NCBI RefSeq assembly: GCF_001488575.1
Contig: NZ_LN831302.1
Location: forward strand, 930,001 to 994,000
Length of the DNA stretch: 64,000 bases
Direction of reading: 5' to 3'
DNA from: Halobacterium hubeiense
Lineage (GTDB): Archaea; Halobacteriota; Halobacteria; Halobacteriales; Halobacteriaceae
Shown: piece after piece, positions 17,359-23,066 of the stretch
Position numbering within the stretch: the first letter of the stretch is position 1
How the letters are laid out: each line of letters opens with the position of its first letter
Made by a program: the position numbers and the translations under genes
Notes under the pieces: generated by a model
Told to the model about the DNA's origin: nothing
The model's database searches: none
Seen by the model: only the letters and a program-made list of their open reading frames with translations

Positions 17359-19761
17359 ATGACGTCCTTCCAGTCGACGCTCGGCGAGGAGGAGGGCATC
17401 GCGGAGGAGCTCGCCGCGAGCCAGCGCGAGATCTCCATCGCCGAGTTCTTCGAGAAGAACAAGCACATGCTCGGCTTCGACAGCGGAGCCCGAGGGCTGG
17501 TCACGGCCGTCAAGGAGGCCGTGGACAACGCCCTCGACGCCACCGAGGAGGCCGGCATCCTCCCGGACATCTACGTCGAAATCGAGGAGGGCCGCGACTA
17601 CTACACCCTCGTCGTCGAGGACAACGGGCCGGGCATCACCAAAGAACAGATCCCGAAAATCTTCGGGAAGCTCCTGTACGGCTCGCGGTTCCACGCCCGC
17701 GAGCAGTCCCGCGGCCAGCAGGGCATCGGCATCTCCGCGGCCGTCCTGTACTCCCAATTGACCTCGGGGAAGCCGGTGCGCATCGAGAGCCGCACGCAGG
17801 ATTCGGGCGTGTCGAACTACTACGAGCTCATCATCGACACGGACACCAACGAGCCCGAAATCAGCGTGGAGAAGGAGCTCTCCGCGGCGGAGAGCGACCT
17901 CCGCGGCACGCACGGCACGCGCATCGAGATGGACCTCGAAGCGAACATGCGCGCCCGCGGCCAGCTCCACGACTACGTCAAGCACACCGCGGTCGTCAAC
18001 CCCCACGCGCGCATCGAACTGCAGGAGCCGAAGGGCGAAATCAAGGCCGAGCGCGCCGAAGACGCCGGTCTCCCCGAGGAGACCGAGGAGATTCGCCCCC
18101 ACCCCCACGGGGTCGAACTCGGGACGCTCATCAAGATGCTCGGCGATACGGATTCGCACTCCGTCTCGGGGTTCCTCCAGTCGGAGTTCACGCGCGTCGG
18201 GAAGAAGACCGCCGACGGCATCGTGGACGCGTTCCGCGACCGCCACTACGGCCGCGAGCTGCGGTGGCGGCCGCCCGGAATCGATTCGGAGACGGACCTC
18301 GAAGCCGCCGTGGTGGACGCCGTCTCGAACAAGGGCGCCGACGACACCGCGGCGTTCGCCGAGCGCGTCGCCGACGCCGTCGAGGACGCGGAGCGCGTCG
18401 CGTACTCGGAACTCGAAGCACTGGTCGCCGACGCCGCCGCGGAGTCCGAGGCGGCCTCGGGCAAGACGTTCGGCGACACCGTGCAGGAGCACGTCGTCGA
18501 CGCGGTGTGGGACGCGCTCACCGAGGACCGCGCGGCCGACATCTTCGTCGCGGTGGACGCCGCGACGACCGTCCAGAAAGACGACGCGACGGTGCGCGGG
18601 CTCGCCGAGCGCATCGCCGACAAGTTCGGTAGCGACACGCCCCGCGACCGCGTGACCCGCGCCGAACTCGCCGAGTTCGTCCACCGCGCCGCGGAGATGA
18701 CCGAGGAAGTCGAGGACGCGACCGTCGGCGACACCGCCCGCGAGAACGTCGTCGAGGAACTCTGGTCGGACATGGCGACGGTCCCCGACGACCTGCCGAA
18801 GACCAAGGACGTGGCGGGCGACCGCGACACCGCCAGCAAACTGCTGGACGCGATGGCGAGCGTAGACGTGATGGCGCCGCCGACCTCCTGCCTGTCGCCC
18901 ATCAAGGCCGACCTCGTGGAAGCGGGCCTCCGCAAGGAGTTCGACGCCGAGTTCTACTCCGCGGCCACCCGCGACGCCGAAGTCCACGGCGGCGACCCGT
19001 TCATCGTGGAGGCCGGCATCGCGTACGGCGGCGAACTCGAAGACCAGGGCGGCGTCGACCTGCTGCGGTTCGCGAACCGCGTGCCGCTGGTCTACCAGCG
19101 CGGCGCCTGTGCGACCACGAACGTCGTCAAGGACATCGGCTGGCGGAACTACAACCTCGACCAGCCCGGCGGCAGCGGCCTCCCGCAGGGTCCCGCCGTC
19201 ATCATGGTCCACGTCGCCTCGACGAACGTGCCGTTCACCAGCGAATCCAAGGACGCCGTCGCGTCCGTCGAGGAAATCGAGGACGAAATCGAGCTGGCGG
19301 TCCGGGAGGCCGCCCGCGACCTCAAGTCGTTCCTCAACAAGCGCCAGTCGATGCGCAAGCGCCAGCAGAAGCAGAACGTCATCATGGACATCCTCCCCAC
19401 GATGGCCGAGAAGGTCTCGGACATGACCGACAACGAGCCCCTCGACGTCGAGGACTCGCTGGCGCGCATCATGAACAACGTCCTCGTCGAGCGCGACCTC
19501 GACGGTGACGAGGTGACCCTGCGCGTCGAGAACCACGGCGACACCGCCGCGGACGTCGACGTCACCGACATCGTCACCGCCGAACCCGCCGACCCCACCG
19601 ACGGCAACGTCGTGGAGATGGACGGCGAGTGGTTCGTGAAGTGGTCGCCGTCGGTCTCCGGCGGCGACACCGCGGAACTGACGTACAGCGTGGACGACGA
19701 CGCGGAGTTCGACCTCTCCGTGCAGGGCGTCGAGGACGCCCGCCTCACCATCAACCAATGA
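17359..19761 (+). CDS. top6B: DNA topoisomerase VI subunit B
   Basis: ATPase subunit of the type IIB topoisomerase, which relaxes and decatenates DNA. The GHKL/Bergerat fold is clear: [25 protein letters not shown] and [17 protein letters not shown]. The transducer begins near PPTSCLSPI. At 800 residues it is much longer than the Sulfolobus subunit (about 530): an acidic, helical, Ala-rich insertion spans roughly residues 315-475 in the H2TH region, and an Ig-like beta domain forms the last about 100 residues. ATG 17359 is the first codon consistent with the family N-terminus. Overlaps top6A by ATGA. Confidence 0.97.
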
Positions 19762-20867
19762 GCGACGCAAACACCCCAGACACGCCGAAGGGCGACGACG
19801 CCCGCGACCAGCTCGTCGAGCTGGCCGAACAGTTCTACGACCAGTTCGCGGACGGGTCGGTCCCGAAGATGACCCTGCCCACGCGCTCGAAGTCCAACAT
19901 CGAGTACGACGACGACTCCGACGTGTGGGTGTACGGCGACCGCACGAGCACGCGCTCGGCGAACTCCGTGCGGGGCGCGCGCAAGCTGTTGAAGTCCATC
20001 TACACCATCGACTTCCTCGCCCAGCAACTCGACGAGGACCGCTCTTCGACGCTGCGTGAGTTGTACTACCTCTCGGAGTCCTGGGACGAGGAGGAAGCCC
20101 AGTTCAACGACCAGAGCGAGTCCGACAAGCTCGTCGAGGACCTCGAAATCGTCTCCGGCGTGAAGCGCGAGGACTTCCACATGCGCCCCGAGGAGTCCGG
20201 CGCGAAGGTGATGGGGCCGCTGCGCATCCGCGAGCAGACCAACCGCGGCGACCGCGAGATTCACTGCCAGGACGACGTCGGGCAGGGCGGCTACCAGATT
20301 CCGAACAACCCCGACACCATCGAGTTCCTGGACTGCGACGCGGAGTTCGTGATGTGCGTGGAGACCGGCGGGATGCGCGACCGCCTCGTCGAGAACGGCT
20401 TCGACGACGAGTACGACTGTCTCGTCGTCCACCTCGGCGGCCAGCCGGCGCGCGCGACCCGCCGCCTGACCAAGCGCCTCCACGACGAACTCGGCCTCCC
20501 CATCACCGTGTTCACTGACGGCGACCCGTGGTCGTACCGCATCTTCGGCTCCGTCTCCTACGGCTCCATCAAGTCCGCACACCTCTCGGAGTATCTCGCC
20601 ACCCCCGAAGCGCAGTTCGTGGGCATCCGCCCGCAGGACATCGTCGACTACGACCTGCCGACGGACCCGCTCTCGGATTCGGACGTGAACGCCCTCGAAT
20701 CCGAGCTGGAGGACCCGCGCTTCCAGAGCGACTTCTGGACCGAACAGATAGAGCTCCAGCTCGACATCGACAAGAAGGCCGAACAGCAGGCGCTGGCCTC
20801 CCGCGGCCTCGATTTCGTCACGGACACCTACCTGCCCGAGCGCCTCGACGAGATGAATGTAATTTAG
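19758..20867 (+). CDS. top6A: DNA topoisomerase VI subunit A
   Basis: DNA-cleaving subunit, homologous to Spo11, 369 residues. The catalytic Tyr lies in [11 protein letters not shown] (Tyr103/104), and the TOPRIM domain supplies the metal-binding Glu in [11 protein letters not shown] and the DGDPW motif. Start ATG lies in the ATGA overlap with top6B. The final codons (atgaatgtaattt then tag) already have the A+T-rich composition of the following islet, so the junction with foreign DNA falls at or just inside the 3' end of this gene. Confidence 0.97.
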
Positions 20868-22280
20868 TCTATTAAATGGGACAACGAGATTTCGTTGCAC
20901 CGTTTCTGCTAATCATTTCAAGCCTGGCTGGATTAGCCGATTATCTGCTTCCCATCGTTTTTGTTTGGAGGCCTGAAATCTCTCCAGTTGTTCAGACCTT
21001 TCTTTTTGCCTTGGCAGTAGCAGAGTATGCACCTGATTTTACAAGACAAGGAAACTACTGGGTATATCAGTTAGGGAAGATTTTATCTGCAGTTGCGATT
21101 TTTGGGTTGGTGACTTTTCATACTATACTTGTGCCTTTTTTAATTTCAATTATATACTTCCTGATTTCACTGAACAAAAGCCCGATACCAACCTCTGCTA
21201 AAGCAATAGTCAGATTCCTTGCCTATGTCCTATTAACTTCTTTCTTAGTTGGCGTCGGAGACGTTTTTTCTCCGGTTTTCGAAATATTACTGTTTATCGC
21301 TGGTATGTCGATATTGTTTAAATACTTCCCTGTGAAAAAGCCCAAAACTTCACTCGATAGTCAGATGGTTCGCGCTATTGGTGATATTATATACACGCCC
21401 TTTCTGACGGTGCTCTCTGCAGTGCTCCTTGCTACTATTTTCATTTCCCTCTCTTATAGCCAGGAATTTTTCACAATGTTAGTAGTGGCATTTCTCCCGA
21501 ACTTCCTAGCTCTTTTCGTTGGCTCACCTGTTGCTGCAGTGTCTGCGGTCGCAAATATTCTATTCCTATTTATCATCTCTTTCTACTTCGCTTATCTATT
21601 GGTGGGCGTTTCGGAGATCTGGATTCCAGAGCGGTCATTAGAGGGCAATATCCCAGGACTCTACGGGACGGCTATCATTCCAATATTTGGATATATATTC
21701 ACTCGGTTACCACACCACAATACGGGCGTGGTTTCCGCCAATTATAGTATATTTGGAGTTTTGGCTTCACTCCTTGGAATAATCCTTTTGCTGGTCTACT
21801 CTTCCGCTATATTCCCTCCAATCAATCGGAAATTCTCTTATACTATGCACTTCACTGTCCCCAGCGATGATCTAGTAAGTGGTAAAAAACACTTGACCAT
21901 CTCGTTGTTTACGATGTTTTTATACATATCGTATCTGGTCAGAGATGATGTACTTCTCATGGTGTACTTTGCTTGGTTATTGTGGTTCCCAGTTTTATGG
22001 GTTCGAAATAGCGGGGTGGCTGGCAGAACCTTCTGGGTCTTAGTGATGGTCTTGCTCGATATCCTGTTTATCCAATCTGGCCAAGGGGGTGTTGCTGATC
22101 ATATAATGCTGGGTGGTGTGGTCATACGAAATGTTGGGATTCTTGGAATAGTCTGCCAAATAATAGAAGAATATCAGACTGATTGAACCATCTGAAATCG
22201 CTTCTAACTACAGCCCATATTAGCGATGGTGCGAGAGAAGTATACAGTGTATTGACAAGATAGGCGTCATCTAAGCACCG
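20868..22280. other. Low-G+C islet inserted between top6A and a NagD-like gene
   Basis: Base composition changes abruptly just after top6A and returns at the stop of the next minus-strand gene. A counted 60-base stretch (21061-21120) has only 23 G or C, against clearly G+C-rich flanks. Codons rare in haloarchaea (TTA, ATA, AGA) are common. It holds one gene (20876-22186) and a 94-base A+T-rich tail (22187-22280) in which I see no gene. No transposase, integrase, tRNA or clear terminal repeat was found. Confidence 0.85.
20876..22186 (+). CDS. Unrecognised polytopic membrane protein (436 aa) of foreign composition
   Basis: I recognise no family. The protein is highly hydrophobic, with about 12-14 candidate membrane segments (for example 8-30, 66-98 as a pair, 109-128, 132-150, 171-193, 197-218, 222-245, 290-310, 337-376, 384-400, 410-430). 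Loops are short and not acidic, unlike typical halophile proteins. Polar spots include GLADYLLP, LPHHNTGVVSANYS (278-291) and the cytosolic-looking KKPKTSLDSQMVR (154-166). ATG 20876 lies 8 bases after the top6A stop without room for a normal promoter, so it may be read through from top6BA. A complete undamaged frame in foreign DNA implies selection after transfer. Transporter, flippase-like or immunity roles are all open. Confidence 0.8.
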   Translation: MGQRDFVAPFLLIISSLAGLADYLLPIVFVWRPEISPVVQTFLFALAVAEYAPDFTRQGNYWVYQLGKILSAVAIFGLVTFHTILVPFLISIIYFLISLNKSPIPTSAKAIVRFLAYVLLTSFLVGVGDVFSPVFEILLFIAGMSILFKYFPVKKPKTSLDSQMVRAIGDIIYTPFLTVLSAVLLATIFISLSYSQEFFTMLVVAFLPNFLALFVGSPVAAVSAVANILFLFIISFYFAYLLVGVSEIWIPERSLEGNIPGLYGTAIIPIFGYIFTRLPHHNTGVVSANYSIFGVLASLLGIILLLVYSSAIFPPINRKFSYTMHFTVPSDDLVSGKKHLTISLFTMFLYISYLVRDDVLLMVYFAWLLWFPVLWVRNSGVAGRTFWVLVMVLLDILFIQSGQGGVADHIMLGGVVIRNVGILGIVCQIIEEYQTD

Positions 22281-23066
22281 CTATTCTCCGGCCAGCAGGC
22301 CCGGGACGTCCGAAAGCGAGTCCAGCACGTAGTCCGGCTCGACGTCGCTGTCCGCGAGGTCCGCGTCGGTGCTGACGCCCGTGCGAACTAGGACCGTGGT
22401 CATCCCCGTCCGCTCGCCCATCGAGACGTCCGTGTCGAGGCGGTCGCCGACGAGCACGCACTCGTCGGTCGGGACGCCGAGGCGGTCGGCGGCGAGGCGC
22501 GCGGTCGTCGCCGACGGCTTCCCCAGCACCGCGTCGGGCTCGCGTTCGGTGACGCCCGCGACCGCGCGGATGATGGCTCCCGACCCCGGCGAGCGACCGT
22601 CTTCTGTGGGAATCGTGGCGTCGCGGTCCGTGCCGACGAACGCCGTCTCGTCGTCGAGCGCGTCGATGGCGGCCTGCAGGTCGCGGTAGTGGAACTCCCG
22701 GTGGTAGCCCGCGACGACCACTTCTGCGGTCTCGGGGTCGTCGGTCAGCGCCACGCCGGCGTCCCGCAGTTGGTCCACGATGGAGGCTTCCGCAATCGGG
22801 AACGCGGGTTCGCCGGCGTGGTTCTCGCGAAGGTACGCGACCGTCGCGTCCGTGGACGTGAGCACGTCCTCGGCGGCCGCGTCGATGCCCAGCTCGCGCA
22901 GCCGCGCGGCGTACTCGCGGGGCGCAACGGTGGGGTTGTTCGTCAGGAAGAGCACGCGGTCGAGGCGCTCCCGGAGCGCCGTGACTGCGTCGGCCGCGCC
23001 CGGCAGCAGCGTCTCGCCGCGGAGGACGGTACCGTCGAGGTCCACGACGGCGCCACGAACGTTCAT
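22281..23066 (-). CDS. HAD-superfamily sugar-phosphate phosphatase, NagD-like
   Basis: A 261-residue HAD hydrolase with the catalytic pair Asp9-Leu-Asp11 (VVDLDGT), motif II Thr in FLTNNP, motif III Lys in LGKPSATT and motif IV VGDRLDTDVSMGE. The large C2 cap between motifs II and III (about 75-175) places it with NagD, AraL and 4-nitrophenylphosphatases, which act on sugar phosphates, phosphoglycolate or nucleotides. The substrate cannot be read from sequence. Its stop marks the right edge of the low-G+C islet. Confidence 0.88.
   Translation of the reverse strand: MNVRGAVVDLDGTVLRGETLLPGAADAVTALRERLDRVLFLTNNPTVAPREYAARLRELGIDAAAEDVLTSTDATVAYLRENHAGEPAFPIAEASIVDQLRDAGVALTDDPETAEVVVAGYHREFHYRDLQAAIDALDDETAFVGTDRDATIPTEDGRSPGSGAIIRAVAGVTEREPDAVLGKPSATTARLAADRLGVPTDECVLVGDRLDTDVSMGERTGMTTVLVRTGVSTDADLADSDVEPDYVLDSLSDVPGLLAGE

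Follow-up and report, generated by a model that had tools for sequence, protein, structure and literature searches.

The question that this locus raises is how a short, G+C-poor stretch of DNA came to stand directly behind top6A, the gene for topoisomerase VI subunit A, in an otherwise G+C-rich region of a Halobacterium genome, and what it brought along. Across the window, by which we mean the whole 64-kb stretch of DNA that was analysed, G+C was 0.39-0.42 at 21001-22000 and 0.62-0.77 in every counting interval lying outside 20501-22500, so that an islet of ~42% G+C stands against a mean of ~69%. Codon usage told the same story. The open reading frame at 20876-22186 showed G+C of 0.48/0.35/0.42 at its three codon positions, while the third position reached 0.93-0.94 in top6A and top6B. 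The description in an earlier note of a foreign, G+C-poor islet in a uniformly G+C-rich window was thus borne out, and its borders, given there as 20868-22280, were moved to 20856 and about 22262. As delimited by composition, junctions and absence in relatives, the foreign insert measures 1407 bp (20856-22262, the right border being uncertain by up to 9 bp). On its left lies top6A (19758-20867, plus strand), identified by tblastn and by alignment to 12 congeneric genomes, whose final 12 nt (20856-20867) are insert-derived. On its right lies a nagD-like HAD phosphatase gene (22281-23066, minus strand), recognised by tblastn to congeneric loci, where its place beside top6A is conserved in the genus. 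Between these two neighbours a single gene is found, coding for a 436-residue membrane protein. Rfam gave no match in the islet, and the RNA fold of the 3′ spacer was not special (z -0.7).

We compared the end of top6A with its counterparts in relatives. Native genes there end in ...GACGAGATGGGCGTCATCTA(A/G) or close variants; their 3′ ends read ...GACGAGATGGGCGTC, then ATC, CTG or CTC and then the stop codon, with small variations. The present gene ends in ...GACGAGATG followed by AATGTAATTTAG, and the latter stands in place of GGCGTCATCTA(A/G) with the terminal x-V-I-stop retained. Upstream of these last 12 nt, top6A shares 93-95% identity with the four relatives nearest to it; within them 5-6 positions mismatch those relatives, where the rest of the gene differs at 5.5-6.8% (binomial P 2e-5 to 7e-4). 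The left junction (20847-20867, plus strand) is attL-like, consisting of native GACGAGATG and then insert-derived AATGTAATTTAG, which restores x-V-I-stop. Judged by the relatives' endings, this comparison showed that the final 12 nt of top6A, its three last sense codons and the stop, gave way to a version brought by the insert.

The original ending was then sought with a weight matrix built from 57 native top6A endings, the window excluded, and run over both strands of the 64 kb. The first-ranking site, at 26.1 bits, was GACAAGATAGGCGTCATCTAA at 22254-22274, the real end of top6A scoring 20.5 and the best unrelated site 12.9. Two native tails share 19 of its 21 positions, whereas shuffles of the surrounding 100 bp gave at most 15/21 against any tail, and an exact GGCGTCATCTAR occurs only once in the window, at this same right junction. 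By matrix and shuffles alike, 22254-22274 (plus strand) forms an attR-like junction whose native part is 22263-22274, and the matches to native tails showed the original top6A end to have been displaced 1407 bp downstream, to the right edge of the islet. Since mismatches jump in the last 12 nt of the gene and a native-like ending lies at 22254-22274, it follows that the insert carries a substitute top6A ending. M-N-V-I is a natural top6A ending in another haloarchaeon (L077), and as x-V-I-stop was also kept, the incoming sequence seems to imitate its target. The earlier note had placed the left junction in the last codons of top6A and suspected that the natural 3′ end was replaced; both points held, with foreign sequence starting at 20856. 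It had also seen no clear repeats and left the mode of entry unexplained; neither point held. Compared directly, the two endings have little sequence in common, and the repeat becomes visible only with relatives at hand; once both are recognised, one rebuilt and one displaced, they point to a site-specific insertion, and a puzzling islet is explained by a readable insertion scar.

We consider it reasonably probable that the islet represents a small mobile element in integrated form, devoid of an integrase of its own, which was placed at top6A by a site-specific recombinase. A top6A ending is found at both edges of the islet, the 3′ end of top6A is restored, and the site is without the insert in all 12 congeners. 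A second insert between top6A endings in another family (L151, described below) and the published thaumarchaeal precedents also speak for this reading. The recombinase would most likely have been a tyrosine integrase using the 3′ end of top6A as attB, with strand exchange in or beside the short block common to both junctions (GAC.AGAT, or GACRAGATR). The integrase may have been lost by deletion from a larger element or supplied in trans, which would make the islet a relic or a non-autonomous cassette. An empty site would then keep GGCGTCATCTAA next to nagD and would read GACGAGATGGGCGTCATCTAA directly before the nagD-side GCACCG, and the circular junction of the free element would read GACAAGAT(G/A)AATGTAATTTAG. 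Integrase sites usually share an identical core of 13 bp or more. No longer identical core was found at the two junctions here, where the flank-to-flank repeat was not above shuffles. The insert held no integrase or integrase fragment, its sole sizeable reading frame being that of the membrane protein, which has no Phage_integrase match. Furthermore, in 116 other genomes no autonomous element with the same target was seen at a distance of up to 12 kb from top6A, the reconstructed attP was found neither in IMG/VR nor elsewhere in the own genome, and searches of plasmids and phages for the top6A ending returned only top6A itself or noise. The genome holds several Phage_integrase genes above cut-off that could act on the islet in trans, and nothing was found that links them to the top6A site. 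The nearest of them (C1:998746-999315) lies ~46 kb from the islet, ~4.7 kb past the right end of the window. Since an integrase of its own and a longer identical core were both looked for and neither was found, the islet looks like, and probably arose like, an element integrated at a gene 3′ end, without being a proven member of that class.

The same junctions could have been left by transposition, if a transposase-less, MITE-like unit was moved by a transposase in trans and GACGAGATG and GACAAGATA, which agree at 7 of 9 positions, represent an 8-9 bp target-site duplication. Two positions of the non-coding right copy would then have mutated, and x-V-I-stop would be a product of chance kept by selection on top6A. 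We regard this as unlikely, though deserving of attention: the shared block of 8-9 bp is as long as many target-site duplications are and is followed at once by native sequence, but there are no terminal inverted repeats (the best inverted match of the ends, 6 bp, was equalled in 236 of 300 shuffles), no transposase was found in the insert, which is single copy in the genome, and a random sequence is estimated to give x-V-I-stop about once in several thousand. Illegitimate or homology-assisted recombination, with no dedicated recombinase, would have joined the top6A end of a low-G+C relative, together with the gene behind it, within the last codons of the resident top6A. The left junction does resemble a foreign top6A end, and duplicated or rearranged top6A ends occur nearby in four other genomes described below (L151, L079, L098 and L135); a native ending at the right edge is, however, not what simple replacement would leave, and no genome draw contained a donor with the cargo gene behind top6A. 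On this balance such a recombination appears quite improbable.

The interval entered by the insert is itself unsettled within the genus. That the same gene might occur in most Halobacterium species had been named beforehand as evidence against a foreign islet; its protein was absent from 12/12 other genomes of the genus, all of which have top6A. Seven congeners (L007-L010, L014, L015 and L019) carry an MFS transporter gene after top6A (MFS_1 at 1.8e-30), which in L007-L010 and L019, where the locus reaches far enough, sits between top6A and nagD; in L011, nagD follows top6A after ~230 bp. From these arrangements the top6A-nagD interval is variable in the genus. In the present genome the MFS gene is missing as well as the islet present; several others of the genus also lack the gene at this place, and no close copy exists elsewhere in this genome (best match 28% identity). 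The idea that the islet frame is a diverged form of this native transporter gene, with which it shares position, orientation, a similar length (436 vs about 394 aa) and a polytopic character, is scarcely credible, as it resembles nothing in the congeneric genomes that carry the MFS gene, lacks the MFS profile match that the relatives' gene gives at 1.8e-30, differs in composition and has a displaced top6A end to its right.

To see the locus on a wider scale, we read ~12 kb of 3′ flank of top6A in the 116 other genomes. In L151 (G326), which belongs to another family, a low-G+C insert of 3.06 kb occupies 0-3060 after the top6A stop and lies between copies of the top6A ending; the displaced ending scores 31 bits at +3041, and this right copy is longer and rearranged. 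The insert encodes a HAD-like hydrolase and an HTH-like protein, both below Pfam cut-off, and a DUF7509 protein. It also holds a fragment of a GTPase gene, of which a full copy stands further on. In L041 (G001) a tract of at least 12 kb, low in G+C and plasmid-like, starts right after the top6A stop. A Phage_integrase gene and a resolvase-like gene lie there directly after top6A, and no displaced top6A ending was detected in about 52 kb. No integrase related to that of L041 was found near top6A in the other flanks, in a search from one seed by which divergent integrases could be missed. Taken together, these flanks suggest that the 3′ end of top6A is a variable locus; L151 and L041 do not prove a dedicated integrase. 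Separately, five genomes (L079, L098, L156, L135 and L053) repeat the last 21-39 nt of top6A 44-53 bp downstream, within ~130 bp, in most cases separated by coding sequence copied from upstream in inverted orientation, and in L135 the repeat is present twice, as a tandem of about 65 bp. These repeats are possibly the result of slippage, a terminator or the scars of old insertions.

We then turned to the cargo. The gene (20876-22186, plus strand) starts 8 nt past the top6A stop and is intact, with 436 codons from ATG to TGA. Its product is strongly hydrophobic (GRAVY 1.03), with ~9-12 candidate membrane segments, and its loops are neutral rather than acidic (22 K+R, 22 D+E, pI 7.0). Reading frame, hydropathy and charge counts therefore agree with the intact polytopic protein lacking acidic loops that was first described here, and the statement that it belongs to no known family withstood profile HMM searches of Pfam, NCBIfam, PHROGs and PADLOC. 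Pfam gave no family at E up to 1, MFS and Phage_integrase included; NCBIfam and PDB gave no significant match, PADLOC nothing significant (best E 0.04), and PHROGs a best value of 0.2. A match to a housekeeping family, likewise named beforehand as counter-evidence, was looked for in these searches and none was found. Homologues were absent from plasmids and phages (tblastn), IMG/VR and GTDB contigs (searched twice), and from overlapping genome draws at the level of family (26), class (391), order (392) and phylum (375). Weak matches in L003, L004, L005 and L171 were rejected as homologues, being short, interrupted by stops or placed over unrelated genes; those scans that used peptide patterns are able to detect close relatives only. 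AlphaFold2 without an alignment returned a pLDDT of 48 for the whole protein and 60 for residues 1-195, so that the model was not good enough to be used in a fold search. No function can be inferred for this orphan from the present data; conflict, exclusion and transport are mere guesses drawn from other orphan membrane proteins of archaea, and likely only in the broad sense that archaeal 'dark matter' genes are enriched in membrane proteins (PMC4158269).

With the frame starting 8 nt after the top6A stop and G+C-rich coding DNA lying before the insert, there is little chance that an archaeal TATA element lies at the usual distance. The simple inference is then read-through from top6BA, and to judge from this arrangement the cargo gene is probably transcribed together with top6BA. 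A cargo without a promoter could be expressed if inserted right behind a housekeeping gene whose ending is rebuilt. It is a long shot that one gene makes up the whole of an integrative cassette here, which an integrase belonging to another element and recognising the haloarchaeal top6A terminus mobilises in trans, and that the cargo founds a new membrane-protein family; the cargo as it stands is one further orphan membrane protein. The locus suggests top6A, which was present in all 391 haloarchaeal genomes searched, as a target of integration, and an integrase for this conserved site, if found, would provide haloarchaeal genetics with a landing site on the chromosome. Our literature search met with no report of a topoisomerase VI gene as an integrase attachment site in haloarchaea, an absence that is not proof.

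Among known systems, casposons resemble the islet in their target, the 3′ end of a gene for a universal protein, in their case EF-2 in Thaumarchaeota (PMC6563490), but the Cas1, polymerase and terminal inverted repeats of casposons have no counterpart in the islet. MITEs and other non-autonomous transposons are likewise small, lack a recombinase gene and are flanked by a short repeat; unlike them, the islet is without terminal inverted repeats, occurs as a single copy, carries an intact 1.3-kb cargo and has rebuilt the ending of its target. Archaeal 'dark matter' islands are comparable in that they consist of rare orphan genes which evolve fast and among which membrane proteins and mobile elements are enriched (PMC4158269); the islet differs in being one gene with readable junctions and not a multi-gene island. 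Integration into archaeal protein genes has been reviewed (PMC8371274), and 14 of 68 thaumarchaeal elements target the 3′ ends of protein genes (PMC6563490). Exchange of a gene's last codons and stop for insert DNA, the old end being moved away, is a documented result of site-specific integration into such genes in archaea: at a Zn-finger gene, NitEve-E2 of Nitrososphaera evergladensis replaced eight nucleotides, the stop among them, and its att measures 13 bp (PMC6563490). Elements of this type and the islet have in common the protein-gene 3′ end, the element-derived last codons and stop, the short flanking repeat and the empty site in relatives (PMC6563490). The islet differs from them in targeting top6A, in being only 1.4 kb with one gene and in having no integrase inside; compared with NitEve-E2, its common block is shorter than the 13-bp att and its substitute ending mimics the native one. 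The kind of element that the islet resembles is a known one, integrated at the 3′ end of a gene, and what is notable here is the lack of an integrase, the small size and the choice of top6A as target.
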